A DNA stretch of 64,000 nt from Alphaproteobacteria bacterium LSUCC0396. GTDB lineage: Bacteria > Pseudomonadota > Alphaproteobacteria > Puniceispirillales > Puniceispirillaceae. The stretch is taken from the NCBI GenBank assembly GCA_041228345.1, contig CP166131.1, positions 372,001 through 436,000 on the forward strand. The letters run 5' to 3'. A program made the translations under genes and the position numbers. The notes beneath the pieces were generated by a model. That model searched no databases. It worked only from the letters and a program-made list of their open reading frames with translations, and was not told the origin of the DNA. Shown in pieces: positions 7,547 through 64,000 of this stretch; within the stretch, counting starts at the first letter, position 1, and each line of letters starts with the position of its first letter.

Positions 7547-7879
7547 TCAATCAAGCCCTAACGCCGCCCTAACATCAGCTGTCCAGCCAATAAAACTGGC
7601 ACTATCCGTTACGATAACCGGCCGCTTAATCAGGGTTGGATGAGCCTGTAACAAAGCCAGCGCAGGGTGCTGGCGCGCCGCGTCATCAAGGCCGCGCCAT
7701 GTCGTTGATTTGCGGTTCACCACCACATCATCACCATGCTGATCAAGCCAGTTTCCAAGCTGAGCACTGGTAACTGGATTTGCCCGCAGATCAATAAATT
7801 CAACGCTTTTACCCGCAGCTTGCAACGCCTTTAGCGCCTTTTTGCAGCTATCACAATTCTTCAGCCCATATAGTTTCAA
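7547..7879 (-). CDS. ArsC/Spx-family thioredoxin-fold protein (YffB-like)
   Basis: A 110-residue protein with the thioredoxin-like ArsC fold. The N-terminal motif LKNCDSC is a CxxC; NRKSTTWRGLDD and LIKRPVIV are the conserved middle and cis-proline regions. It resembles E. coli YffB and Spx more than true arsenate reductases, which rely on several cysteines or glutaredoxin. The start is TTG with AGGGAGG about 8 bases upstream. Its exact substrate is unknown; arsenate reduction should not be assumed. Confidence 0.82.
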   Translation of the reverse strand: MKLYGLKNCDSCKKALKALQAAGKSVEFIDLRANPVTSAQLGNWLDQHGDDVVVNRKSTTWRGLDDAARQHPALALLQAHPTLIKRPVIVTDSASFIGWTADVRAALGLD

Positions 7880-50619: not shown

Positions 50620-50693
50620 GCGGCGTTTGTGTAGTGGTAAGACCTTAGCCTTCCAAGCTAAAGACGCGGGTTCGATTCCCGCACGCCGCTCCA
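50620..50693 (+). tRNA. tRNA-Gly (TCC)
   Basis: A 74-base plus-strand tRNA with encoded CCA. The anticodon stem TTAGC/GCTAA encloses CTTCCAA, giving TCC; acceptor GCGGCGT pairs with ACGCCGC. Its 3' end lies 86 bases before the integrase gene, the usual place for a tRNA attachment site. Confidence 0.96.
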
Positions 50694-50708
50694 ACTACAC
50701 TCACAAAG

Positions 50709-50772
50709 GGTCTTAGGACCGAGATACAAGTTACTGTTTCTAAACGATTAGCGTTCTAGAACAGGAGTTTGT
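50709..50772 (+). repeat. Left copy of a 64-base inverted repeat (integrase leader)
   Basis: The leader just before the integrase start. It aligns without gaps to the reverse complement of 52726-52789, with 51 of 64 positions identical and most differences transitions. It begins with the imperfect palindrome GGTCTTAGGACC and includes CAAGTTACTGTTTC, AAACGATTA and the ribosome-binding ACAGGAGTTTGT. Confidence 0.9.
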
Positions 50773-50778
50773 TGTCCT

Positions 50779-51921
50779 ATGGTGTGGGTAAGGTTGCCGG
50801 TATACTTTTACAAAAGAAACGAAACTTTTTACTTCTCTCGGTCAATTCCATCTGACCTTCAGCATCGCTTTAAAAAACGTAAAATTGAAGTATCACTCCG
50901 AACAAAATCGGAATCAAAAGCAGCCAAATCTGCTGCGGCGCTGTCTGATCGGCTCGAGCGATATTGGGACAGTCTCCGGATGGAGATGATCTATTCACGG
51001 GAACTTGGCCTGAGGGTAGCGCCAGACGCTAAGACCACTATCAGTGCCAAAAGCTTTCCTATGACAGAGGCGCTGGCGCTCTATCATCGTTTGAAAGGTG
51101 GTGGAAAGACAAAGCTGTTCTTCGAGTCCTCAGAGCGAAGCATGCGCTGCCTGATAGATTGTCTGGGGCATGATGATTTGGCGGCAATTGAAGTTTCAGA
51201 TGCTGGTCGGTTTAGGGATTATTTGTTTGATCGGGGCATGTCTTCATCATCATTAAAGCGAGTGTTTTCATCTGTGCGAGCGGTGATCAATCTCGCCATT
51301 CGAGAAGAGGGCCTATCCATCAATAACGTGTTCAGTGGCACATTCATTCCAGACGATGACGCCAAAACACAACGCTTACCCATCCCAACTGATGTACTAC
51401 TAACCATTCAGGATGAATGTATGCAGATGGATGATGAACCACGATGGTTGATTGCCCTTATTAGCGATACCGGCATGCGTCTTTCAGAAGCCTGTGGGTT
51501 GCTGATATCAGATATATGTTTGGATGCTGAATTGCCACACATCAACCTTGTTGCGCATCCTTGGCGGCGGTTGAAGACAGGGCCTAGCTCGAGGTCAATT
51601 CCACTGGTCGGCACTTCGCTCTGGGCAGCAAAACAAGTCATAAAGCAGGGCCATCAATTTGCCTTCCCAAAGTACTGCAACGAGTCCAAGTGCAATGCCA
51701 ATTCTGCAAGTGCAGCGCTTAACAAATGGCTTAAGCCTCGTGTTCCCAACGGATGCGTTATCCACTCGTTCCGACATAGCCTGAGAGACAGGCTGAGGGC
51801 TGTCGAATGTCCTGCAGATATTATTGACACCATTGGCGGTTGGACCACAGAGGGAGTTGGCCATCAATATGGTACGGGACACAGCCTTTCTACTAAATAT
51901 AAGTGGGTTTTAAAATTTTAA
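50779..51921 (+). CDS. Tyrosine-type site-specific integrase
   Basis: A 380-residue tyrosine recombinase. The N terminus (YFYKRNETFYFSRSIPSDLQHRFKKRKIEVSLRTKSESKA) is an arm-binding domain; a core-binding region follows (about 90-190). The catalytic domain has Arg in DTGMRLSEACG, HSFRHSLRDRLR (HxxR), the GGW position and the nucleophile Tyr in GHQYGTG. It appears intact. It lies directly downstream of tRNA-Gly in the same direction, consistent with integration there. AGGAG lies 12 bases before the ATG, longer than usual because the leader has a 6-base insertion relative to its partner copy. Confidence 0.93.
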   Translation: MVWVRLPVYFYKRNETFYFSRSIPSDLQHRFKKRKIEVSLRTKSESKAAKSAAALSDRLERYWDSLRMEMIYSRELGLRVAPDAKTTISAKSFPMTEALALYHRLKGGGKTKLFFESSERSMRCLIDCLGHDDLAAIEVSDAGRFRDYLFDRGMSSSSLKRVFSSVRAVINLAIREEGLSINNVFSGTFIPDDDAKTQRLPIPTDVLLTIQDECMQMDDEPRWLIALISDTGMRLSEACGLLISDICLDAELPHINLVAHPWRRLKTGPSSRSIPLVGTSLWAAKQVIKQGHQFAFPKYCNESKCNANSASAALNKWLKPRVPNGCVIHSFRHSLRDRLRAVECPADIIDTIGGWTTEGVGHQYGTGHSLSTKYKWVLKF

Positions 51922-51948
51922 GTTATGTCTCCAGATTTGAGCGCGATT

Positions 51949-52725
51949 CTAGTTTAGAAAAGCGCTGGTCAAAACTGGGAAGCTTGAAAAGCCAAAACGG
52001 CCTTGCTGCTCCGCTTTTTCAAGTTGAGACTTCCAATCTGAAACTTCTTCTTCAGACACGCCCTGAGTTAAGGCAAAATTTGCCATTATCGCTTCAGTAT
52101 ATCTTGCAGGTGAGTTTCCGTCTCTTCTTGTTATCACAAAAGCTAAAGATTTATCTTTTATGTTTCTAAAGCCCCTACGCTCAAGCTTTCCGGGAAGTTC
52201 CATTGGGAGCATTTGATGGCTACAATGCGCTTTAAACGCATCATGAACTTTTTCATTTAACTTTTCATCAGCACCGTAAAATTTAAAGTGATCCCATAAA
52301 ATAGAGACGTTCACGAACGCACCACCAGGCTTCAAAACACGAGTAATTTCGTCTAAAGCTGGGTCAACATCGGGGATATATTCTAGAGCCTGCGTTGATG
52401 TTGCTGAGTCGCAACAATCACTCTGCAGTTCACTGTCATCTGCACTTCGTTCAATCAACTTGATTATGGCAAGCTCTGAGCAGCGCTGACTAGCTTGTTC
52501 TAGCTGGGCTTTACTTGGGTCTAATCCATAAATAGTGCCGGAGCTGCCGACAGCTTTAGCTAAATGCGGCAGAAGATAACCAGCACCACAACCAATATCT
52601 ATGATGACATCACCAGCTTGGATTTGCATTTCATTTAGTATTTCATTTCGTCGAGTAGTTCCTGCAATACTCTCTGCCATGAGACGTGAAAGTTTGCCTA
52701 AGTCACTATCAAAATCAATACCCAT
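51949..52725 (-). CDS. Class I SAM-dependent methyltransferase (cargo of integrase module)
   Basis: 258 residues. Motif I is VIIDIGCGAGYLLPHLA (about 40-56), followed by YGLDPSKAQLEQA, ATSTQALEYIPDVDPALDEITRVLKPGGAFVNV (motifs IV-VI of the UbiE-like branch). The C-terminal part (LSLAFVITRRDGNSPARYTEAIM-type) is specific and gives no substrate. It is convergent with the integrase (27 bases between stops). Its leader is nearly identical to that of the integrase, and its codon use is A+T-rich like the integrase. Horizontal acquisition is likely. Confidence 0.85.
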   Translation of the reverse strand: MGIDFDSDLGKLSRLMAESIAGTTRRNEILNEMQIQAGDVIIDIGCGAGYLLPHLAKAVGSSGTIYGLDPSKAQLEQASQRCSELAIIKLIERSADDSELQSDCCDSATSTQALEYIPDVDPALDEITRVLKPGGAFVNVSILWDHFKFYGADEKLNEKVHDAFKAHCSHQMLPMELPGKLERRGFRNIKDKSLAFVITRRDGNSPARYTEAIMANFALTQGVSEEEVSDWKSQLEKAEQQGRFGFSSFPVLTSAFLN

Positions 52726-52789
52726 ACAAACCCCTGTCCCAGAATGTTAATCGTTTGGAAACAGTCACTTGAGTCGCGGTCCACGGACC
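52726..52789 (-). repeat. Right copy of a 64-base inverted repeat (methyltransferase leader)
   Basis: Read on the minus strand it runs straight into the methyltransferase ATG. It begins with the perfect palindrome GGTCCGTGGACC, then CAAGTGACTGTTTC, AAACGATTA and ACAGGGGTTTGT. See the left copy for the alignment. Confidence 0.9.
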
Positions 52790-53161
52790 TTGGAACTTGG
52801 AGAATGGTGCGCTCGGGAAGAAGTTCGATGCCTACCCACAGCGCCAATCCGTGACTGAATCCATCAATATCAATAGCTTAACAAATCATCACATATGGTC
52901 AACTATCAAAACCTTACCTGCAACCTTACCTGAACCAAGTTCCGTGGTTCGAGGGCCACGTTTCGACGCCCAAGGCCCGAGTTTCACGGACCACTGCCCA
53001 GCAGCCGCCGATCAAGCGTCAGGGTTACTGAGGACGTTTTTCTGTTAGACTTGGCCTTGGTTATAGGGGTGGGGTCTAGATTGGCCAGGGCTTGCGTCTC
53101 AGAGGGCCGGTTTACTTGATTGGTTGGTGAAGGCAGTGAAGGCTAATTTTGTTTGGAATAA
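52790..53161. other. Non-coding remainder between methyltransferase and tRNA fragment
   Basis: About 370 bases with no convincing gene. It contains GC-rich partial palindromes (for example gtggttcgagggccac near 52944-52959) and a CCAAGTTCC at 52935-52943 that also occurs on the minus strand at 52792-52800. It may contain decayed attachment or leader copies. Confidence 0.45.
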
Positions 53162-53210
53162 CGGAATCATAATCCGCGTGTTGGGGGTTCGAGTCCCTCC
53201 TCCGCTACCA
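53162..53210 (+). pseudogene. 3' half of a tRNA-Met-like gene (probable attachment-site remnant)
   Basis: 49 bases resemble the 3' half of an elongator tRNA-Met: part of the anticodon arm CGGA-ATCATAA-TCCG (anticodon CAT), variable loop, T arm GGGGG-TTCGAGT-CCCTC, acceptor strand CTCCGCT, A and CCA. The 5' half (expected acceptor AGCGGAG and D arm) is absent upstream. This is the form left at the far end of an element that integrated in a tRNA-Met gene. Confidence 0.75.
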
Positions 53211-53352
53211 TTTCTCTTAATACAATCAATATTTTACAGCGTCTCAGAAATATTTTTGAGGTGTTTTTTGCATTACACACCTCTTACACACTTTTCTGTT
53301 GGCTTCCAGTCGCGCAAGACTATATCGTTTTTATAGTGATTGGATGTGTTAG

Positions 53353-53556
53353 ATGCCTGTTTTGTGTGAAGATTCTGTGTTGATTATGGATGGAGCGGTA
53401 AAGCTCTACAGGCGTCAGAGAAGCCGTAAATGGCAGGCGGCCTCCCAAATAGACGGCCAATATATTCGCATCTCAACAGGTAAGAGCGATTTGGACGAAG
53501 CCAAGCAGGCCGCGATTAGCCGTCTTGTTCCGGTGGATCCACCAATTTTGTTTTAA
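53353..53556 (+). pseudogene. Relic: N-terminal end of a second tyrosine integrase
   Basis: 67 codons. GAVKLYRRQRSRKWQAAS then QIDGQYIRISTGKSDLDEAKQAAI matches the N-terminal domain of phage-type integrases (LYRR-x-S-x-WQA-x-IDGK-x-IR-ST-DLDEAK). Similarity stops at about 53520, at the 3' end of the cupin gene, and no catalytic domain follows. It is 143 bases downstream of the tRNA-Met-like fragment in the same direction, as expected for the integrase of an element at that site. Confidence 0.7.
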
Positions 53557-53926
53557 AATTGGCAGGGGCAACGATTTCAAGAACTTCAAAATCATCTGAA
53601 CAGGCGATCTCGCGATGTTTGATCATTGGCGTTTGCAACACCGTATCGCCTTTGCGAATGGTATGCTGACCTTGGCCCTCATATTCAAAAGTCGCCCAGC
53701 CATTCAAAACATAGACCATTTGAAAGCTACATTCATGGATATGCCATGACTGGATACCCTCATCATTATCATGTTCGTTGCGCCGAATAACATGCGCCAC
53801 AAAGTCACCATTGGTAGCGGCTTTGATGCCCAGATCACGATATTCAAAAATATCACGCAAGCCAGGCGTCCAAGCCGCCCCATCGGCGACATGATGCACA
53901 AAATTCCAGCTTTTGTTCTTGGTCAT
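53516..53926 (-). CDS. Cupin-domain protein
   Basis: 136 residues forming a single cupin barrel. Motif 1 is HIHECSFQMVYVLNGWATFEYEGQ (metal ligands His, His/Glu) and motif 2 is GDTVLQTPMIKHREIACSDDFEVLEIVAP. It could be a metal-dependent small-molecule enzyme or a binding protein. Its 3' end overlaps the integrase relic on the other strand, which marks an insertion/deletion junction. Confidence 0.83.
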   Translation of the reverse strand: MTKNKSWNFVHHVADGAAWTPGLRDIFEYRDLGIKAATNGDFVAHVIRRNEHDNDEGIQSWHIHECSFQMVYVLNGWATFEYEGQGQHTIRKGDTVLQTPMIKHREIACSDDFEVLEIVAPANFKTKLVDPPEQDG

Positions 53927-53981
53927 GATCTTTGCTCTTTCTCTGGTGTGGCTCGAGGCCTGTTAGACATAAAATCAAGCC

Positions 53982-54593
53982 TTAGCTTGCCAGCGGTGCC
54001 GCGGCTCTGTCAAACAGGCTATAATCGCGGGTTGTGGTAAATAACGCCGCCGCCCCTGCCCCTGATTTGGCAATCGCATCAGCTAGCCCAGCGGTTTGAT
54101 TTGTGCATCTAGCGATCAGTAAATAGCTGTCAGGATCAGTTAATGATTTAAAATGACAGGTGATATCAAAATTTGCCATTGCCCCGGCAATATTGGCCGA
54201 CGACGCAAAGGCCAGTGTTAGAATAAAATTCTCGGTGTTTTCTGCGTCGGCTGGTGGCGCATTGGTGACCGTACCGCTTGTCCAGTTCCAGATATTTTGT
54301 CCAACACGAATACGGTAATCTGCAAAAATATTTTTGATACCGTCCATTTGCGCATGGCGATGCTGTTGATTGCGCCGCCACGCCGCCAGATGCGCCTCAC
54401 TTTGCCAAAGCTGATGCGACAAAATAACGTCCGGGTCGTCAACCGAGGCATAGCGTTGCAGCCATACAAGCCCATCATGCTCTGCTAAGACTGGCTTTAG
54501 CTGGTCAACATGGGCAAAATAGGCCTGCCGGCATCCAGGCTTTGGCCGCATTTCAAAAAACAATCCGGTGGCTGAGGATAGCTGATCCGCCAT
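53982..54593 (-). CDS. Antibiotic biosynthesis monooxygenase (ABM)-domain protein
   Basis: 203 residues. The N-terminal half (about 9-100: GLFFEMRPKPGCRQAYFAHVDQLKPVLAEHDGLVWLQRYASVDDPDVILSHQLWQSEAHLAAWRRNQQH) is a dimeric alpha-beta barrel domain of the ABM type. The second half has a similar strand-helix pattern (ITCHFKSLTDPDSYLLIARCTNQTAG) and may be a diverged second copy. Probably in one transcript with the cupin gene, 55 bases downstream. Confidence 0.72.
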   Translation of the reverse strand: MADQLSSATGLFFEMRPKPGCRQAYFAHVDQLKPVLAEHDGLVWLQRYASVDDPDVILSHQLWQSEAHLAAWRRNQQHRHAQMDGIKNIFADYRIRVGQNIWNWTSGTVTNAPPADAENTENFILTLAFASSANIAGAMANFDITCHFKSLTDPDSYLLIARCTNQTAGLADAIAKSGAGAAALFTTTRDYSLFDRAAAPLAS

Positions 54594-54899
54594 AAAACCT
54601 CGTATAATATAGCCGTTGTTAAACTCGTTTAAATCCTGCGCCTCTCGCCAGACCCGAATATGGCGGCGACGTCAGTTCATGATCCAGACTATCAGTCTTG
54701 CATATCATAGGCTGGCTATCTAAGAAAATGCACAAAATCATTTGCAAAAATGGTCTAAACATCAGATTAAGATAGTACATGCGCGAACGCTTTTTTTACA
54801 TCTTGCTTATAAATAGGCTCGCTAGTCTGTAAAAAAGTGATTGAAGCAAACAAAACTGACGAAAAGACATCCGATGCGTTTAAATGTTGTTTTTGCATA
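54594..54899. other. Divergent intergenic region before the EamA-type transporter
   Basis: 306 bases; no gene or clear regulatory motif seen. The transporter frame is open from a GTG at 54837, but conserved sequence begins at the ATG at 54900. Confidence 0.5.
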
Positions 54900-55781
54900 A
54901 TGGCGAGGTCTCAGCCGATAAAAGCCGCATTCTGGATGGTTGGGGCGATGGTGTCGTTCAGCCTGATGGCAATTTCCGGGCGTGAATTGGCGCCTGAACT
55001 CAACACTTTTGAGATTATGTTTTTCCGTTCGCTCATCGGGCTGGTCATTGTTGTTTCGCTTGGGGCGATAACGGGCAGTTTGACACAGATTAAAACAAAT
55101 CGGCTTGGCCTGCATTTTTTGCGAAATACGGCGCATTTTACTGGCCAGAATCTATGGTTTTTAGCGGTCGCTTTTATCCCCTTCTCACAGCTTTTCGCGC
55201 TGGAATTTTCAACACCCATTTGGGTGGCCTTACTCGCCCCATTATTTTTAGGAGAGGCGCTGACTCAGCGCCGGTTAATTGCTGTCGGTTTAGGGTTTGC
55301 TGGCGTTTTAATCGTGGCGCGCCCAGATATGCAACAGCTTAACCCAGCCATTTTGGCGGCAATCGCCTGTGCTATATGTTTTGCCTGTTCCTTAATGGCG
55401 ACCAAAAAACTGACATCGGATCAGTCAATTACCTGTATTTTATTCTGGCTCACATTTATGCAACTTGGCATGGGCCTTATGGCGGTCATGGTCACTGGTG
55501 GCGTGCGGTTAACAACTGGCATTGACACGATGTGGGTACTCATTGTGGGGATTGGTGGTCTCACCGCCCATTTTTGTATTACAAAAGCCCTGTCATTGGC
55601 ACCGGCAATCGTCGTGATACCGCTTGATTTCATGCGTTTGCCGCTTATTACGGCAATTGGCTTTGTGACCTATGCCGAGCCATTTGAATGGCCGGTTGTA
55701 TTTGGCGCCCTGCTTATTTTCACGGCGATTTTAATCAATTTGCAAACCGAGCGTCAAAAAAATAGGGCAGAGAGCCACTAA
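54900..55781 (+). CDS. EamA/DMT-superfamily transporter
   Basis: 293 residues with about ten membrane helices in two halves (first half: AAFWMVGAMVSFSLMAISGRELAPELNTFEIMFFRSLIGLVI; second half: PAILAAIACAICFACSLMATKKL). The conserved LQPLFALEFSTPIWVALLAPLFLGE-like block is of the RhaT/EamA type. The substrate is unknown. The start choice (ATG 54900) is based on homology to the family N terminus. Confidence 0.85.
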   Translation: MARSQPIKAAFWMVGAMVSFSLMAISGRELAPELNTFEIMFFRSLIGLVIVVSLGAITGSLTQIKTNRLGLHFLRNTAHFTGQNLWFLAVAFIPFSQLFALEFSTPIWVALLAPLFLGEALTQRRLIAVGLGFAGVLIVARPDMQQLNPAILAAIACAICFACSLMATKKLTSDQSITCILFWLTFMQLGMGLMAVMVTGGVRLTTGIDTMWVLIVGIGGLTAHFCITKALSLAPAIVVIPLDFMRLPLITAIGFVTYAEPFEWPVVFGALLIFTAILINLQTERQKNRAESH

Positions 55782-55818
55782 AATTGCTGTTACGGGTGCA
55801 TTTTAGCCAACCAAATTT

Positions 55819-56703
55819 TCAATCTTTTTGCGACTGTTTGATCGCCTTTAAAATGGCCGAAAAATCCGCATTAGCGGCATTACCTTGCCCCGCGAAATTT
55901 TGATATAATGCCAGCGCCGCCTTGCCAAGGGTGGTATTGGTTCCAGTCATAGTGGCGGCGTCGGCGGCAAGCGCCAGATCCTTGACCATCATGGCGGTTG
56001 AAAATCCCGGCTTATAGTCGTTATCAGCCGGGCTTTTAGGCCCGACACCAGGCACCGGACAATAGCTGTTCACCGACCAAGAGCTTCCTGATGAGGTGCT
56101 GACAACATCGAATAATTTTTGACGATCAAGCCCCAAATTATCGGCAAGGGCAAAGGCTTCGCATGTTACAATCATGGTGGCGCCAAGAATCATGTTATTA
56201 CATATTTTCACCGCCTGACCGGCACCAGCATCACCGCAATGAATTGTGCGCTGACCCATAATATCAAATAACGGGCTGGCCATCGCCAGCGCCTGTGGCG
56301 TACCGCCAACCATAAAGGTCAAAGTGCCGGCGCCAGCGCCGCCCACTCCGCCTGATACCGGCGCATCAAGCCCATACAGACCCGCCGCTTCAATAATTGT
56401 CGCAACTTTCCTGGCGGTGTCTATGTCGACCGTCGAACAATCGATGAAACAGGCCGATTCTTGCATTTCTGGGATGATCTTTTTTGCCACATCAAGCAAC
56501 GCCGCCCCATTGGGAAGCATGGTGACAACAATATCGCGACCCCGCGCCGCGCTGGCCGCATCATCGGCAATAGCCAGTTGATCGGCAACGGCGTGGCATA
56601 GATCCGGGTTTAAGTCAAAGCCGGTAACGTCATGCCCGGCATGCACCAGATTCCGGGCCATCGGCGCGCCCATATTGCCAAGCCCGATAAAGCCAATTTT
56701 CAT
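55819..56703 (-). CDS. 3-hydroxyisobutyrate dehydrogenase-like (beta-hydroxyacid dehydrogenase)
   Basis: An NAD(P)-dependent dehydrogenase of the beta-hydroxyacid family. It has the Rossmann IGFIGLGNMGAPMARNL, the substrate motif DAPVSGGVGGAGAGTLTFMVGG and the catalytic Lys in GQAVKICNNMILGATM, followed by helical domain II. These match MmsB-type enzymes of valine catabolism, but tartronate-semialdehyde reductases look similar. AGGAGA 7 bases before the ATG at 56703 fixes the start. 294 residues. Confidence 0.88.
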   Translation of the reverse strand: MKIGFIGLGNMGAPMARNLVHAGHDVTGFDLNPDLCHAVADQLAIADDAASAARGRDIVVTMLPNGAALLDVAKKIIPEMQESACFIDCSTVDIDTARKVATIIEAAGLYGLDAPVSGGVGGAGAGTLTFMVGGTPQALAMASPLFDIMGQRTIHCGDAGAGQAVKICNNMILGATMIVTCEAFALADNLGLDRQKLFDVVSTSSGSSWSVNSYCPVPGVGPKSPADNDYKPGFSTAMMVKDLALAADAATMTGTNTTLGKAALALYQNFAGQGNAANADFSAILKAIKQSQKD

Positions 56704-56847
56704 AACATGTCTCCTGATTTTATCTGTCAGCATCTGTCATCGTAACGCATTGCCGCACTGGTCTGCTGTAATCTTCCAGGAGAGGCGCGAAATGCGCTAT
56801 GCCTATTCATCTAAAATGGTAATTTATGTTTTTGCAAAGGAAACATC

Positions 56848-58443
56848 ATGCGCAGTCTTCAACGCCCTGGGCGCTCGCCCGTTCTTGCGCCAGAGGGGAT
56901 GGCAAGCACATCCAGCCCACTTTCAACACAAGCCGCCGTGTCGGTTCTGCAAAATGGTGGTAATGCTATGGATGCGGCAATTGCCGCCTGTGCGGTTCAA
57001 GGCGTTGTTGAGCCGCAATCGACAAGTATTGGTGGCGATTGTTTTTGCCTTTATGCCAAGGTTGGTAGCGATAAAGTCATCGCCATAAATGGATCTGGGC
57101 GGGCCCCGCTTGGACTTAGCGCTGAATGGCTTTTGGAACAGGGCATTAACGAAATTCCGCAACAATCGCCGCATGCGGTTACTGTGCCAACGGCCGTTGA
57201 CGCCTGGGTTCAGTTAAACCGTGATTATGGATCAAAACCACTTGGTGATTTGTTACAGCCGGCAATTGGTTACGCGCGCCATGGCTTTCCAATCGGCCGG
57301 CGTGTTGCCGCCGATTTTGCCGAATGCCATGCACTTTTGACGGGTGATGCGGATATTGGCGCGGTCTATTTTAATGATGGCAAGGATTACAAATTTGGTG
57401 ACCGGTGCAGCAATCCAAATCTTGCCAAAACCCTCGAAGCGATTGCCGCGCATGGCCGTGACGGTTTTTACAAAGGCTGGGTCGCAGAAGATATTTTGGC
57501 AAAGCTACAATCTTTGGGTGGGCAGCATGTGCAGGCTGATTTAGATGCCGCTGTCGCCAATTATGTGACTCCGATTAAAACCAATTATAGGGGCTATGAT
57601 ATTTGGGAATGCCCACCAAATGGGCAAGGCCTGATTGCACTTATGTTGCTTAATATCATGGGAGGCGTTGATAAATTCGGCGACCACCCAATTTCGGTGC
57701 AACGTATGCACCATGAAATTGAGGCTGGCCGTCTGGCTTACCGCGACCGTAATCTCTATCTGGCCGATCCAGATTTCAGTGATGTGCCGGTGGAAACGAT
57801 TCTCAGCGCCGATTACGCCACGGCGGTTCGCGGCCAGATTGACCCTGACAAAGCACATGCTGATTTACCACCCTCGCTGTTGCCAGCCCATAAACATACT
57901 GTCTATATCTCGGTCATTGATAAAGACCGTAATGTGTGTAGCTTTATCAATACCGTATTTCACAGCTTTGGCGCTGGTTTGATGGCTCCAGAATCAGGGG
58001 TTGTCTTGCAAAATCGGGGGCAGGGCTTTGTTGTTGAACCGGGTCATCCTAACTGTATTGCGCCCGGCAAACGGCCCCTGCATACCATTATTCCCGGCAT
58101 GGCAACCAAAGATGGCAAGGCTGCCATGTCTTTCGGCGTAATGGGGGGTGAATATCAGGCCTTTGGCCATATGCAATTCCTCACACGGCTTTTGGATTAT
58201 GGTATGGATGTTCAAGAGGCGCAGGATATGCCGCGCTTTTTCCCAGATCCCTCTAGCGATGTTGTCGAGGTGGAAGAACCAATCAGCGAAGATGTTCGCG
58301 CAGCATTGCGGGCGCTTGGACACAATATTCAACCGGCTGTTAGACCCATTGGTGGATCCCAGGCCATCCTCATTGATTGGGATAAGGGCTTGCTGATCGC
58401 CGGATCCGATCCTCGTAAAGATGGGTGTGCAATGGGCTATTAG
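56848..58443 (+). CDS. Gamma-glutamyltransferase family enzyme
   Basis: An Ntn-hydrolase of 531 residues. The N terminus (RPVLAPEGMASTSSPLSTQAAVSVLQNGGNAMDAAIAA) and the cleavage/nucleophile block TVYISVIDKDRNVCSFINTVFHSFGAGLMAPESGVVLQNRG identify the GGT family; the nucleophile Thr aligns with the first Thr of the TTH-x-S motif, although the second Thr and His are V and Y, as in YwrD-like members. There is no signal peptide, so it is probably cytoplasmic and may act on substrates other than glutathione. The stop is convergent with the SABATH gene. Confidence 0.9.
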   Translation: MRSLQRPGRSPVLAPEGMASTSSPLSTQAAVSVLQNGGNAMDAAIAACAVQGVVEPQSTSIGGDCFCLYAKVGSDKVIAINGSGRAPLGLSAEWLLEQGINEIPQQSPHAVTVPTAVDAWVQLNRDYGSKPLGDLLQPAIGYARHGFPIGRRVAADFAECHALLTGDADIGAVYFNDGKDYKFGDRCSNPNLAKTLEAIAAHGRDGFYKGWVAEDILAKLQSLGGQHVQADLDAAVANYVTPIKTNYRGYDIWECPPNGQGLIALMLLNIMGGVDKFGDHPISVQRMHHEIEAGRLAYRDRNLYLADPDFSDVPVETILSADYATAVRGQIDPDKAHADLPPSLLPAHKHTVYISVIDKDRNVCSFINTVFHSFGAGLMAPESGVVLQNRGQGFVVEPGHPNCIAPGKRPLHTIIPGMATKDGKAAMSFGVMGGEYQAFGHMQFLTRLLDYGMDVQEAQDMPRFFPDPSSDVVEVEEPISEDVRAALRALGHNIQPAVRPIGGSQAILIDWDKGLLIAGSDPRKDGCAMGY

Positions 58444-58447
58444 CCCT

Positions 58448-59569
58448 TTATACGGTTTTTTCAATATCCAGCACAATATGGACGTAATCCATAGCGTGAC
58501 CGGTTGGTTCGGCGGCGACTGTATCGCGGTAGGCATTGTAAAACCCGTCGACGATCTGATCAGCCTCATCGGTTGAGCGATCTTGCAGGGCTGTTCTAAA
58601 GACTGTTTCTGACCAGGAACGCATCGTCGGGATCAGGCTGTCGGCATAATCATCATTCGACATAGTGCCGCCAACCCCGCCAGCATCCAGAAAGGCCGCT
58701 TCATAGGGGCATTTGGTCAATTTGCTATGACAGGATTTCAGCGAGAGACCGGCACGCCGAACGGCACTATCAGGGTCGTTAAATGGTGCGCAGAATTCAT
58801 CCATGGTGCGATAATATTGCGCAAAACTGGCGCGCTGATATTCATCAGCGGTAATTGTTCCATCGTTATAAAGCGCCTGCCAGAATTGATGAAAATGGTC
58901 GAACATATGTTCGCCACCGGTATTACCAAGATAGCGGCCCTGTTCGTCAATGCCAAAATTAAGACAGATAAACCGGCCGCCCGGCATCAATTCAGCCGCC
59001 CTTGCCAGCAAAATATTTTCCCAGTCTTTTGCGGCCTGGCTGGCAAAGGCGGCCTGACTTTCGGCATCGGCGCATGCGGCATGAACATGCGTCGGGATCT
59101 CCATTGGCTTGACAGATACATAATGCATGGCGGTGGCGCTAAATCCCAGATTTAGCGAATTGTCGGCCATCAATTGCTGGTGAAAGCCGGTACCGCACCC
59201 ATGCACAAACACATTGTCATAATGGCTTTGATAGGCGTGCGCCGGATTACCTTGCATACCCTGCATCATGCGGAATAGCGTTGAAAAATCATTGCTGGCA
59301 AGGTCGGTATACAACATTTCGATTTGCCGGTTGTCACCAGCGCCGCGGCAATGGCCGATAACCATATCCCACATTTCGCGGCTGGTTCCCCCATCGGCGG
59401 CACCAAAATCGGCTATGCGCAATTTTTGGGTTTGCGGACAATGCGTCAATGCGTCAATTACCATAGTGGCGGCATCATTGATGACATTACGGGCCCCAGC
59501 GGTGCGTTCCGAATAATAGCCTGAACCGCGCATGGCAAGAACGGCTTGTGTGTTAATTCCCTTTGCCAT
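58448..59569 (-). CDS. SABATH-like carboxyl methyltransferase
   Basis: 373 residues. GYYSERTAGARNVINDA, IADFGAADGGTSREMWD, MLYTDLASNDFSTLFRMM, GFSATAMHYVS and GGRFICLNFGID follow, in order, the motifs of the SABATH family (SxSYxxNxxxQ; DLGCSSG; NDLPxNDFNxLF; SSxSLHWLS). SABATH enzymes methylate carboxylates or ring nitrogens of small molecules and are best known from plants (salicylate, jasmonate, theobromine). AAGGAGG 6 bases before the ATG at 59569 fixes the start. It lies 35 bases after dctM on the same strand, so it is probably the last gene of the TRAP operon. Confidence 0.78.
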   Translation of the reverse strand: MAKGINTQAVLAMRGSGYYSERTAGARNVINDAATMVIDALTHCPQTQKLRIADFGAADGGTSREMWDMVIGHCRGAGDNRQIEMLYTDLASNDFSTLFRMMQGMQGNPAHAYQSHYDNVFVHGCGTGFHQQLMADNSLNLGFSATAMHYVSVKPMEIPTHVHAACADAESQAAFASQAAKDWENILLARAAELMPGGRFICLNFGIDEQGRYLGNTGGEHMFDHFHQFWQALYNDGTITADEYQRASFAQYYRTMDEFCAPFNDPDSAVRRAGLSLKSCHSKLTKCPYEAAFLDAGGVGGTMSNDDYADSLIPTMRSWSETVFRTALQDRSTDEADQIVDGFYNAYRDTVAAEPTGHAMDYVHIVLDIEKTV

Positions 59570-59604
59570 TTCTGCCTCCTTAAAATCAGACCCTAAATAC
59601 TCAC

Positions 59605-62256
59605 TTAAAATTGCAAGGAAATATTCTGATGCTGGGCAAGACAAGGTATGATGACCTCAACCTGATCAGACGTTAGACGGTCTTGCTCGCGAAGGCCAAG
59701 ATTATATCTTGCAAAGCTTTCAAATGACGCCAGTTCAGCCCGCAAAGAAGCACTGGCCGCGGCCCGCCACGCTACCTCTGATGCAATGTTGGCGCGGGTT
59801 TCATCAATCAATTTCATTGCTTTTTCTAAATCAGGCGACTTGCTGTCAATGGCGCGTCTGGCGTCCGACAAAGTCTTTGCCGCATCCCGTGCTTCGGGAA
59901 TTTGGTTAAGCGCGCTGTAATTCTCTTTCACCCTATCCAAGATCTCCTCAATGGGTGAGGTCGCCGCGTCTGATTTGATCTTTTGCAACTGGTCACCAAT
60001 TGCCGCCAAGTCTGCTTTGGCATCAATCGCCGCGACCACCAGCCTTATATCAGCATAGGCCTGATCTGATTGACGGCGGAACTGCATCCGCGCCCGGTTC
60101 AACTGGGCGGTGAGCTTTTTAAATTCTTTATTGGTATCTTGCCAGTCGGCGGGGATAAGCCCACGCTTTTCGGCAATTTCATTTTCAAGCTCGGCAATCC
60201 GGTCTTTGATACTGGCTTGTTTGCCGACGTCATCGGTTCCCCGCACAGCGCGGTTCAGGTTTTTAATTTCAGCCTCGTCCTGGCGGATAATGCGTTCAAT
60301 CGCCCTGACCTCTGCATGAATAGGCGCATAGGCAACAGCCGCCTGATCCATGGCCGCCTTGGCGTTTTCAATCTCGGCCACCCGGTCAAAAATGCTCGCG
60401 GCGTTAGTGATATTTTTGGCCATAGCACTTTGCCTTTTTTGTGGGAGGGCTGACAAATCAGCGGCTTTGAGCTGATCCAGCTGCGCCATATAAGCAGTCT
60501 GGTTATTGTCATAGAAATCGAACAAATAATCCTCAAGGCAGAGTTGCAAACGCGGGTTTTTCGGTGGTGGGGCTGTCTCACTCGACAAGAATGTGCGTGT
60601 TGGCAGATAATTCACTAAGCTGGGGTTAAAACCAACAATCGCCAGACCAGCAATTTGCAGGGCGATAAAGGGAATAACGCCTTTATACATATCCAACGTT
60701 TTGACCGCCTTGCTGGCGACCCCGCGCAGATAGAACAAGGCAAAGCCGAAAGGCGGCGTCAAAAATGAGGTCTGAATATTGAGGCCAATCATCACCCCTA
60801 GCCAAACAGCCGTAACATTAGCCGATGGGTCAGCCAACAAAATAGGCGCGACAATCGGCACAACAACAACAGCGATTTCGATAAAATCAAGGAAGAAGCC
60901 AAGTAAGAAAATCACCAGCATGACGACGATAAACTGCGCCCAAAACCCGCCTGGCAGGCTTGACAGAAAATGTTTGACGATTTCTTCACCGCCAAACCCA
61001 CGGAATGCCGCCGTCAGCATCGCCGCACCAAGCAAGATGATAAACACCAGCGAGGTTGTCTTGGCGGTTTCGGCCATAACATCGCGCAAGGTATCTTCGA
61101 TGGTATAGGCGCGCCAGCCACTCCAGAAAATACCAGCCAGCAAGCCCAAGACCGCGATGGTAACAAAGCCAAGCGCGATCCAGTCAGAGGTTTCGGTAAT
61201 GGTTTTGATGCTGAGGTTAAAATTACTCGAAATCAGCCAAATGAGGAGCAAGGACGCGATTGTCAAAATAGCCGGGTAAAAAGCTGTTTTTGTGCCCTCA
61301 CGCAATTTATAGCCAGACATCAGCAAGGCGCCAATCGCCCCAATTGCGCCAGCCTGATTGACCGTTGCAACACCTGCAATGATTGATCCCAGCACCAAAA
61401 AGATCAGCAAAAGAGGCGGCAACAATGCCAGCGCCACCTTGATCAAAAACGAACGTTCCAACAATTTGCCATCATAAGGCACCGCCGGCGCCAATTTCGG
61501 GCGAATCAATGCGGCAACCAAAATATAGGCCATATATAGCCCAACAAGAATGATACCGGGCAAAAACGCGCCTAGAAACATATCGCCCGCACTTGTTGAG
61601 ATGATATTGAATTCAGATGGCATGCTGAACTGGCCAGTCGCCTGTTTATAAAGGTCCTTGCGCATGGTGGCCGCCTGATCAGCCGCGCTTGCCAGCTGGT
61701 CGGCCAGAATAATCAGCACGATTGAAGGCGGAATAATCTGCCCCAATGTGCCAGAGGCGCAAATCGCCCCTGTCGCCAATGGCTTTGAATAATTATTGCG
61801 CAACATCGCCGGCAGCGAAATCAACCCCATGGCCACCACGGTCGCACCAACGATACCGGTAGTCGCGGCCAATAAGCCCCCAACAAATACCACCGAAATG
61901 CCAAGACCGCCGGGAATAGGCCCAAATAGCTGGGCCATTGTGACCAAAAGATCCTCGGCAATTTTTGATCGCTGTAACATAATCCCCATAAAGATAAAGA
62001 GGGGGATGGCAATTAAGGTATCGCGTTCAACTTCCCAATAAATACCGCGGAAATTGGTAACCCCAGCCGTCAGCCATTCAATCGGGCCGTCCTGCACAAA
62101 ATAGGCACTGCTATCACCCTGGAATATTAGCCCCGTCAAACCAGCCAGCAGGATTGTTACAATAGCTGACCCCGGTAATGCAAAGGCAACCGGATAGCCC
62201 GAGCCAAGGGCATACATCATCAGCAAAAACAAAATTGTGAGGAAAACAAGTTCCAT
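59605..62256 (-). CDS. dctM: TRAP transporter large permease (DctM) with long coiled-coil C-terminal extension
   Basis: 883 residues. Residues 1 to about 560 are a multi-helix membrane domain with DctM blocks such as AIPLFIFMGIMLQRS, GGLGISVVFVGGLLAATTGIVGATVVAMGLISLPAM and PPFGFALFYLRGV. DctM proteins are often about 430 residues; the membrane part here is itself longer. Residues about 565-860 form a hydrophilic, charge-rich region with heptad-like alpha-helical stretches (RDEAEIKNLNRAVRGTDDV, DRIAELENEIAEKRGLIP), probably a coiled coil on one side of the membrane. Start overlaps the dctQ stop (TAATG). Confidence 0.9.
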   Translation of the reverse strand: MELVFLTILFLLMMYALGSGYPVAFALPGSAIVTILLAGLTGLIFQGDSSAYFVQDGPIEWLTAGVTNFRGIYWEVERDTLIAIPLFIFMGIMLQRSKIAEDLLVTMAQLFGPIPGGLGISVVFVGGLLAATTGIVGATVVAMGLISLPAMLRNNYSKPLATGAICASGTLGQIIPPSIVLIILADQLASAADQAATMRKDLYKQATGQFSMPSEFNIISTSAGDMFLGAFLPGIILVGLYMAYILVAALIRPKLAPAVPYDGKLLERSFLIKVALALLPPLLLIFLVLGSIIAGVATVNQAGAIGAIGALLMSGYKLREGTKTAFYPAILTIASLLLIWLISSNFNLSIKTITETSDWIALGFVTIAVLGLLAGIFWSGWRAYTIEDTLRDVMAETAKTTSLVFIILLGAAMLTAAFRGFGGEEIVKHFLSSLPGGFWAQFIVVMLVIFLLGFFLDFIEIAVVVVPIVAPILLADPSANVTAVWLGVMIGLNIQTSFLTPPFGFALFYLRGVASKAVKTLDMYKGVIPFIALQIAGLAIVGFNPSLVNYLPTRTFLSSETAPPPKNPRLQLCLEDYLFDFYDNNQTAYMAQLDQLKAADLSALPQKRQSAMAKNITNAASIFDRVAEIENAKAAMDQAAVAYAPIHAEVRAIERIIRQDEAEIKNLNRAVRGTDDVGKQASIKDRIAELENEIAEKRGLIPADWQDTNKEFKKLTAQLNRARMQFRRQSDQAYADIRLVVAAIDAKADLAAIGDQLQKIKSDAATSPIEEILDRVKENYSALNQIPEARDAAKTLSDARRAIDSKSPDLEKAMKLIDETRANIASEVAWRAAASASLRAELASFESFARYNLGLREQDRLTSDQVEVIIPCLAQHQNISLQF

Positions 62257-63272
62257 TACCCAACAACCTCTTCGCTTGTCTCTTCATCAGACAGATTTTC
62301 CTTGATGTCAGCCATTGAGGTGAACAGGTAAGCGGTAAATTGAAAAATCATACTGAGCGCAAAAACCACTAAAAACGCCGCCATAAGATATTTGACATAC
62401 ATGCCAAAACCGCTCATTGAGGTTTCAAAATTCATCATCGGACTGTTGATAAGGCTGGATTTGCCCCACAAGCCGCGCACCAGAATCAACCAGCAAAGCG
62501 GAATACCAAAAAACACTGTGCCAATGATGTTCAGCACAGATTTCGTGCGGCGGGTCAGCCCGGCATAAAGCACATCAACGCGAACATGGCCATCTTCTTT
62601 TAAGGTATAGGCCGAGGCGAACAAAAACAGGGCGGCATACCAAAATCGCACTAAGTCACCCATAAAGGTCTGTTCGTAACCATAAATGAATCGCGCCAGT
62701 ACAATCAAAAATTCGGCAACAACAACCAGCAAAGTCAGCCAGATTAAGGACACTGACTTTTCTTTCAACGCGATCAACCCGGCCACAATTATCAGCGGAA
62801 TATGAACATAAAAGCCGCGATCACTTGGCAGGGCAATAGCGGCGCCACCGGCCTCGCCAAGAATAATTTTATGAAAGCCTTCAACCCGTAAAAAAGACAA
62901 AAACGCATCAGCCACGCCGACCAATAGCACGCTCCAAAATGCCAAACGAACGATGTAGGCAGAGGTGCGATCCATCCAATCGGCATCAGCACGCAAATCA
63001 GCCGATTTTAATGTATGGTAAATTGCAAAGCCAACAGCACCCAAAACAATCGCCGTTTGCCCAAACCCAAGCGCCGTCAAGCCGCCACTGTAGCCTTGTT
63101 TCGGCTGGCTGACACCAAAGGCGTCGCCAAGTCCGAGTGTGTTGATGACCCCGGGCGCATCAATGCCAAAAATCAGAAAATTATTGATCACATAAATAAG
63201 CGCTAGCAACGCACTGGCCAGACCGGCCAACCGTAGCGCAGAAAATACCGTAATTTGAGATAAAGGCGCCAT
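62256..63272 (-). CDS. dctQ: TRAP transporter small permease (DctQ) with N-terminal extension
   Basis: 338 residues, about twice the usual DctQ. The C-terminal half (about 165-320) has the four-helix DctQ domain, including the family-type FASAYTLKEDGHVRVDVLYAGLTRR. The N-terminal 150 residues add about three more hydrophobic helices. Together with DctM it forms the membrane part of a tripartite ATP-independent periplasmic transporter driven by an ion gradient. Confidence 0.88.
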   Translation of the reverse strand: MAPLSQITVFSALRLAGLASALLALIYVINNFLIFGIDAPGVINTLGLGDAFGVSQPKQGYSGGLTALGFGQTAIVLGAVGFAIYHTLKSADLRADADWMDRTSAYIVRLAFWSVLLVGVADAFLSFLRVEGFHKIILGEAGGAAIALPSDRGFYVHIPLIIVAGLIALKEKSVSLIWLTLLVVVAEFLIVLARFIYGYEQTFMGDLVRFWYAALFLFASAYTLKEDGHVRVDVLYAGLTRRTKSVLNIIGTVFFGIPLCWLILVRGLWGKSSLINSPMMNFETSMSGFGMYVKYLMAAFLVVFALSMIFQFTAYLFTSMADIKENLSDEETSEEVVG

Positions 63273-63297
63273 AAGATTGCTTTAAAATAAATCAAAG

Positions 63298-63330
63298 AAA
63301 AAGGGGCCTGCCGATGTTCTGGCAGACCCC
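63298..63330 (-). terminator. Intrinsic terminator between dctP and dctQ
   Basis: On the minus strand GGGGTCTGCC and GGCAGGCCCC form a 10-base stem (one wobble) around an 8-base loop, followed by TTTTT. It lies in the 67-base gap between dctP and dctQ. Partial termination here would give more binding protein than permease. Confidence 0.85.
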
Positions 63331-63339
63331 CGATAAGTC

Positions 63340-64000
63340 CTAACGCAACGCAGCGTTACGCTTCATTGTGTAGGCAACGTCGTTCAACTGAACATAGTCA
63401 CCAACGGTTTTGCGTGCCGCCATGCATGAGTCATGAATTTTCTTGGCCAGTGGCGAATGCACCTCGACCTCGGCATAGACTTCGTCTGAGCCACGCTTAA
63501 AGGCAGCATAAACGTCATCGTTAAATTCACGAACCTCAACGCCTTGCTGCTGCACCAGACGTTCCAGCGCGGCACCATTTTTGGCGTTATATTCGGCCAT
63601 GATATTGTCATTTTCAGCCTGCGTTACCGCGGTAATTAGGGCCTGATCTGACTTGCTGAGGCTTCCCCAGAATGAGGCATTAAAGCCCATCGCTAGCTGC
63701 GATGCTGGCTCATGCATGCCTGGGAAATAGTAATATTTTGCCGCTTCATAGAACTTCATGGCTTCATCGTTCCATGGGCCCACCCATTCGGTGGCTTCAA
63801 TGGCACCAGATACAAGGTTTTCATAAATCTGGCCACCTGGCAATGATACCGGCGACGCGCCAAGTTTGGCCATAACGTCACCACCAAGGCCCGGAATACG
63901 CATTTTTAGGCCTTTGAGGTCTTCGGCTGAATTGATTTCCTTGTTAAACCAGCCGCCCCACTGAACGCCGGTGTTACCGCAAGGTAAACATTTAAGGCCA
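63340..64000 (-). CDS. dctP: TRAP transporter substrate-binding protein (DctP/TakP type), C-terminal part
   Basis: The periplasmic receptor of the TRAP system; the N terminus is beyond the right edge. About 219 residues are visible, with GNTGVQWGGWFNKEINSAEDLKGLKMRIPGLGGDV, SLPGGQIYENLVSGAIEATEWVGPWND and YYFPGMHEP. These blocks match the branch containing TakP, which binds 2-oxo acids, so a carboxylic acid substrate is likely (inference). The frame stays open to base 64000. Confidence 0.93.
   Translation of the reverse strand, partial: GLKCLPCGNTGVQWGGWFNKEINSAEDLKGLKMRIPGLGGDVMAKLGASPVSLPGGQIYENLVSGAIEATEWVGPWNDEAMKFYEAAKYYYFPGMHEPASQLAMGFNASFWGSLSKSDQALITAVTQAENDNIMAEYNAKNGAALERLVQQQGVEVREFNDDVYAAFKRGSDEVYAEVEVHSPLAKKIHDSCMAARKTVGDYVQLNDVAYTMKRNAALR

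Follow-up and report, generated by a model that had tools for sequence, protein, structure and literature searches.

Inverted tRNA-derived attachment-site sequences around the integrase of an island family found mostly in marine bacteria

At this locus a tyrosine integrase gene and a methyltransferase gene converge, and the sequence running up to the start codon of one is repeated, inverted, in front of the other. The question raised is what such paired leaders are for: whether they delimit a small mobile module, place two genes under common control, or belong to the recombination sites of something larger. The window, i.e. the whole stretch of 64,000 nt that was analysed, is G000:C1:372001-436000 of a single-contig genome of 2,592,803 bp that probably belongs to SAR116. 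An earlier note on this DNA had counted 51 matches over 64 ungapped positions between the two leaders, and the count was borne out. The exact arms were found again by a repeat search (50709-50772 versus 52726-52789; 64 nt, 80 % complementary, 1,953 nt apart), and the 51/64 matches of an ungapped arm-versus-arm scan exceed anything expected of background similarity, the highest count among 2,000 first-order shuffles of this region being 34. The genes converge and each arm has its palindrome, as described, and so too are the CAAGT-ACTGTTTC and AAACGATTA boxes present.

The tRNA-Gly island and its attachment sites

The inverted repeats bounding the proposed 2.1-kb module are real, but the module is not the whole element. 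It is part of a tRNA-Gly island of ~15.8 kb (attR at +15816 from the tRNA end), of which only the left part is located inside the window (Table 1). Integration is at the 3′ end of the tRNA gene, which is restored. Both ends of the element could be defined, as the 23 nt core at the tRNA recurs exactly and in direct orientation 2.5 kb past the window end; direct core repeats at the far end are also found in two relatives (G019 and G015). The tRNA-Gly site is variably occupied. G010 carries the tRNA-Gly with amtB ~0.76 kb away and no integrase, and other elements occupy the site in G008 and G004.

Table 1. Features of the tRNA-Gly island (window positions unless a contig is named)
Feature	Position	Strand	Remark
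tRNA-Gly(TCC), integration target	50620..50693	+	ARAGORN
attL core, 23 nt (tRNA 3′ end + 8 nt flank)	50679..50701	+	exact repeat at attR
Integrase leader, inner (P′-type) arm 1, Gly-type	50702..50778	+	includes arm 50709-50772
Tyrosine integrase, 380 aa	50779..51921	+	DUF6538 N-terminus + Phage_integrase domain
Passenger, class I SAM-dependent methyltransferase, 258 aa	51949..52725	-	
Inverted inner arm 2, Arg-type	52726..52798	-	includes arm 52726-52789
Inverted att core 2, TTCTTCCCGAGCGCACCATTCTCC	52799..52822	-	near tRNA-Arg(ACG) 3′ end
Block D (outer, P-type arm), inverted	52823..53139	-	opposite-orientation copy beside attR
Island cargo block	53140..64000	.	extends to ~ window-equivalent 66191, outside window
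attR core	G000:C1:438511-438533		2.5 kb past window end; exact copy of 50679-50701

On the left side the order is tRNA-core-leader-integrase, and on the right side, inverted, it is D-core-leader-methyltransferase. The methyltransferase-side arm thus extends outward into an inverted tRNA-like core and then into block D. A search of the genome against itself showed that 52820-53139 recurs at 438192-438511, 13 kb away, with 97 % identity and in opposite orientation, and that this second copy of D runs straight into CCGCACGCCGCTCCAACTACACT, the attR copy of the core. Judged by sequence context, the leaders of the earlier note are inner arms of tRNA attachment sites. The suggestion made there that the repeats are recombination ends holds up in the form of att core plus arm; as ends of a self-contained unit they do not stand, the repeat being an arm shared by two full attachment sites.

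The two cores of the window's element differ (Gly versus Arg-like), and arm similarity therefore ends at 50709. The integrase-side arm is closest to the arms of tRNA-Gly elements, and the methyltransferase-side arm is closest to those of tRNA-Arg elements. On this comparison the window's element is a mosaic with arms from Gly-type and Arg-type versions, an origin that explains both the unlike cores and the modest arm identity of 80 %, which is low for an integrase family whose usual within-element value is higher. The catalytic residues R234, K266, H329, R332, W355 and Y364 of the integrase are invariant in the family alignment. The methyltransferase scores far under the cut-offs of all named equivalogs, and its low dN/dS against relatives indicates that it is maintained under purifying selection.

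Other remnants are apparent in and around the island. A tRNA-Met(CAT) gene, present as its 3′ half (53166-53213), is followed at 53353-53556 by a 67-aa integrase-N-terminus-like fragment with no Pfam match; together these look like the left terminus of a defunct tRNA-Met element within the island, and the genome has near copies in several other places. Immediately to the right of attR, a leader-like remnant (L029:4535-4600) probably stems from an earlier tandem element. Additionally, a 119-aa HGGxSTG protein, weakly terminase-small-subunit-like, is encoded near attR outside the window (L029:3291-3647) and occurs in islands L127, L128, L140, L208 and L212; a link to phage packaging is possible.

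Recurrence of the layout and turnover of its parts

The methyltransferase with a convergent integrase and two leaders was found in three relatives (G002, G004 and G051). On the methyltransferase side all three have the order D, tRNA core, leader, with the core being Phe in G002, Arg in G004 and Gly-like in G051. A search for the integrase turned up the layout free of the methyltransferase as well, with the inverted core-leader close behind the integrase in G019 (tRNA-Arg) and G020 (tRNA-Gly GCC) and farther away in G015 (tRNA-Asn) and others. Where a locus is complete, successive cores face opposite ways, forward at the tRNA, reverse behind the integrase and forward at attR (G019, -1302/+13315; G015, -1593/+15456; own-genome tRNA-Thr, -1253/+4289/-6210/+10058), and matching D ends flank the cargo on both sides.

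Sequence upstream of the integrase is found inverted downstream in at least 20 of the 29 integrase loci examined in the source genome and its relatives, at up to 100 % identity over 65-107 nt. When public genomes were scanned with an 11-integrase alignment, 80 loci were obtained, 56 of them long enough to test. With a locus counted as positive when an inverted copy was found at E <= 1e-4 within 10 kb, core and leader were present in inverted copy at 39 of the 56, mostly over 75-100 nt at 97-100 %. No inverted copy was found in the other 17/56, in some only because of a short contig. Mismatched upstream/downstream pairs, combined at random from different loci as controls, gave 17/300 positives, and a stretch 520-700 nt upstream gave 1/49. 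Integrases of the PF13356 type showed an inverted copy in 0/20 cases and longer DUF6538 integrases in 0/10, while beyond the window's family the testable integrases of 385-422 aa were all positive (4/4). In the tree, positive tips (47/62) are spread across all main subclades of the ~380-aa DUF6538 integrases, and negatives are scattered. The layout is thus recurrent throughout one integrase family, mostly of marine bacteria. A positive outlier among the long integrases is L295, a 422-aa integrase beside tRNA-Ser(GCT) and outside the main clade, with an inverted repeat of 160 nt (100 %) that takes in the first 47 nt of the gene.

Target tRNAs across the integrase group are Gly, Arg, Leu, Thr, Phe, Asn, Ser and Glu. 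The outer boundary of the repeat on the tRNA side is usually 14-18 nt inside the tRNA 3′ end, with clean cases at Arg, Thr, Leu, Gly, Phe, Glu and Asn. The inner edge falls on either side of the integrase start codon, mostly within ~30 nt, and the start codon is often included when a long query is used. Ruegeria sp. TM1040 has the repeat beside tRNA-Phe on its finished megaplasmid (NC_008043.1), and the inverted copy, 85 nt at 100 %, begins 1 nt behind the stop of the integrase (WP_011537162.1). Assembly artefacts and chimeras of single-cell amplification were rejected as a general cause, because finished replicons carry the layout (the source genome, G019, G301 and Ruegeria TM1040). Contigs among L146-L225 often end no more than ~200 nt from the integrase gene; breakage of the assembly by inverted repeats is the most likely cause, and the likely reason that so many contigs of the integrase clade stop there. 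In L210 two complete tRNA-Leu(TAA) genes with leaders (2165-2252 and 7567-7654) are inverted around the integrase; the pair may have arisen by inversion in nature or as a chimera during single-cell amplification.

D copies tend to be more alike within an element than between elements. D identity is 97-100 % within elements (five cases) and 79-92 % between elements, the within-element pairs being those of G019 (100 % over 271 nt), G015 (98.9 % over 189), own tRNA-Thr (100 % over 179), L199 (99.6 % over 223) and the window's island (97 % over 317). The D pairs of G004 and G002 are only 91-92 % identical, no closer than D copies of different elements. A matching D at attR was confirmed in about five to seven elements, most public-locus sequences stopping before the right end. 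Arms are likewise homogenised within elements, but in the window's subfamily the partner arm is the nearest relative for only 11 of 20 arms, and there the own and G051 elements are mosaics.

Where integrase and inverted leader leave room between them, a convergent ORF often begins at or near the leader end. Besides the methyltransferase and several unknowns, DUF2938 membrane proteins, a SOUL haem-binding protein and a polysaccharide lyase-like protein are among such passengers. DUF2938 passengers are located in four separate loci (L171, L183, L187 and L217; Pfam-checked in two). L199 and L203 are elements of 93 % identity, of which only L203 has an ORF between integrase stop and inverted leader. 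Between the source genome and G002 the methyltransferase is 95-98 % identical at the nucleotide level and the integrase 83-90 %, a gap indicating that the two halves have separate recent histories. Likewise, L154, L155 and L160 have integrase block and D in common, and their cargo is unrelated from ~220-250 nt past the distal core. Going by these comparisons, the methyltransferase is one of several replaceable passengers.

A candidate second recombination site and the alternatives

In elements mobilized by tyrosine integrases the integrase acts at the tRNA core, and excision is the reaction attL x attR. The island is best read as a tRNA-targeting integrative element with two complete, opposite-facing attachment sites, the inverted one of which is probably a working second recombination site, a reading held with slightly better than even confidence. 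Each attachment site consists of D block, tRNA-derived core and leader, with D and leader being what we take to be the two att arms. One leader enters the integrase, and the other, inverted, follows closely after the integrase itself or after a single convergent passenger gene, in the present case the methyltransferase. Recombination of the direct pair attL x attR by the integrase would release a circle, and because excision is between direct cores, the predicted circle would contain two complete inverted D-core-leader sites. The two attP would split this circle into a block with the integrase and an optional passenger and a block with the cargo, and the attP next to the integrase would serve for integration at the tRNA. 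If the inverted site were functional, the two blocks would be exchangeable or invertible, and recombination between the arms would be able to keep them alike. The integrase-side site of the window's element matches the current target, tRNA-Gly, and the inverted Arg-like core appears as if an earlier target had been kept.

The tRNA gene is located on the integrase side in 30 loci, on the other side in none and on both sides in one (L210). If both sites were used equally, or the element flipped freely, about half would be expected on each side, and thus the 30:0 bias argues against free inversion. Two-way integration, with either integrase or passenger first, was rejected as the main reading on this bias. 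Either integration makes use of the integrase-side site alone, or elements in the other isomeric form are lost. The methyltransferase behind a 5′-truncated tRNA-Arg in G059 was not counted as a passenger-first case, as only integrase remnants are present.

Co-regulation of cargo enzyme and recombinase, raised by the earlier note, is ruled out as the main reason for the repeat, since a tRNA core lies inside it in most examples and the second gene is absent in many. A reading as twin regulatory leaders, in which the second copy puts the passenger under the integrase promoter and operator, would account for passenger ORFs whose starts lie at the inverted leader or close to it (with offset 0 in L179, L189, L203 and L217), and for a methyltransferase leader in which all 64 nt before the start codon are retained. 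It is nevertheless unlikely, as the 14-18 nt of tRNA would be needless for a promoter, D past the core is duplicated as well, and in L167, L191, L193, L199 and Ruegeria the repeat is present without a second gene, 1-5 nt behind the integrase stop or overlapping it. Additionally, no sigma-70-like promoter was found in either window leader, which is weak evidence in this clade.

Tandem arrays and relics are found at tRNA genes here (L030, L033, L100, L102 and L108), and the layout could in principle be a side effect, without function, of successive head-to-head insertions at a single tRNA. The presence of the layout in all main ~380-aa DUF6538 subclades and at eight tRNA types, with arms homogenised within the element, makes this quite improbable. 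For CTXphi, two inverted attP located 90 bp apart are active only when folded as a single strand (PMC4246890), and arm identity of up to 100 % would suit such pairing into a hairpin as the real attP. A folded site is very unlikely for the present elements, however, whose arms lie 1.2-6 kb apart around their own integrase, compared with 90 bp and host Xer in CTXphi, and which keep the direct core repeats (attL/attR) as in double-stranded excision. Least probable of all is a 2-kb transposon-like unit inserting alone, with core plus leader as terminal inverted repeats, for in spite of the sharp outer repeat edge inside the tRNA and units down to 1.3 kb, the flank outside the distal core consists of conserved D and not of host DNA, this D being common to elements in different tRNA genes and present again at attR.

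Significance and comparison with known systems

Textbook integrative elements have one attP. The earlier note had known of no described element of this design, and no description of inverted att sites around the integrase was found for tRNA islands or DUF6538 integrases, subscription literature being outside the search; as far as found, the inverted-attachment-site layout has not been described before. Across a whole clade of integrases, resident in the tRNA islands of SAR116 and further Alphaproteobacteria, a second, inverted site is retained behind the integrase gene. If this site works, the elements would possess built-in exchangeable blocks (integrase plus passenger, and cargo), which would explain both the turnover of cargo behind the same integrase and the single genes riding along. 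The inverted repeat also provides a simple sequence signature for locating both ends of such islands.

The elements are like other tRNA islands with a tyrosine integrase in that the integrase is beside the tRNA, the core is the tRNA 3′ end, a direct repeat is located at the far end, and tandem arrays and variable cargo occur. They are unlike them in having a second inverted core and leader (and D, where seen) behind the integrase, the feature seen in none of the 20 PF13356-type loci. Relatives of the integrase were absent from IMG/VR, and distant ones only were found in phage records. Tycheposons, known from Prochlorococcus and reported in Methylophilaceae too (PMC10872708), are similarly marine, tRNA-bounded and equipped with a tyrosine recombinase and large cargo; inverted attachment sites are not mentioned in that paper (‘inverted repeat’, 0 occurrences). 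CTXphi shares two attP sequences in inverted orientation (attP1/attP2), but these are 90 bp apart, rely on host XerC/XerD and have no integrase gene between them. For the tRNA-targeting tyrosine integrase of Thermococcus pTN3, inversion of DNA flanked by oppositely oriented att sites has been demonstrated (PMC5495485). By analogy this makes inversion plausible here, although the pTN3 inversion is between chromosomal tRNA genes and is not built into the element.

The yeast 2-micron plasmid has two inverted repeats with recombination sites for Flp, separating two unique regions, with the recombinase encoded in one. The predicted circle is alike in plan, having an inverted pair of sites and the recombinase in one region; unlike the plasmid, the element integrates in tRNA genes, and only one isomer is seen. 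Neither CTXphi nor the 2-micron plasmid agrees with the elements in what defines it. There is a slight chance that the circle works in a 2-micron-like manner, with inversion between the attP copies during replication leading to a rolling circle. In that case many joined copies would be produced, which might be spread between cells with a helper and then reintegrate at a tRNA via the integrase-side site.
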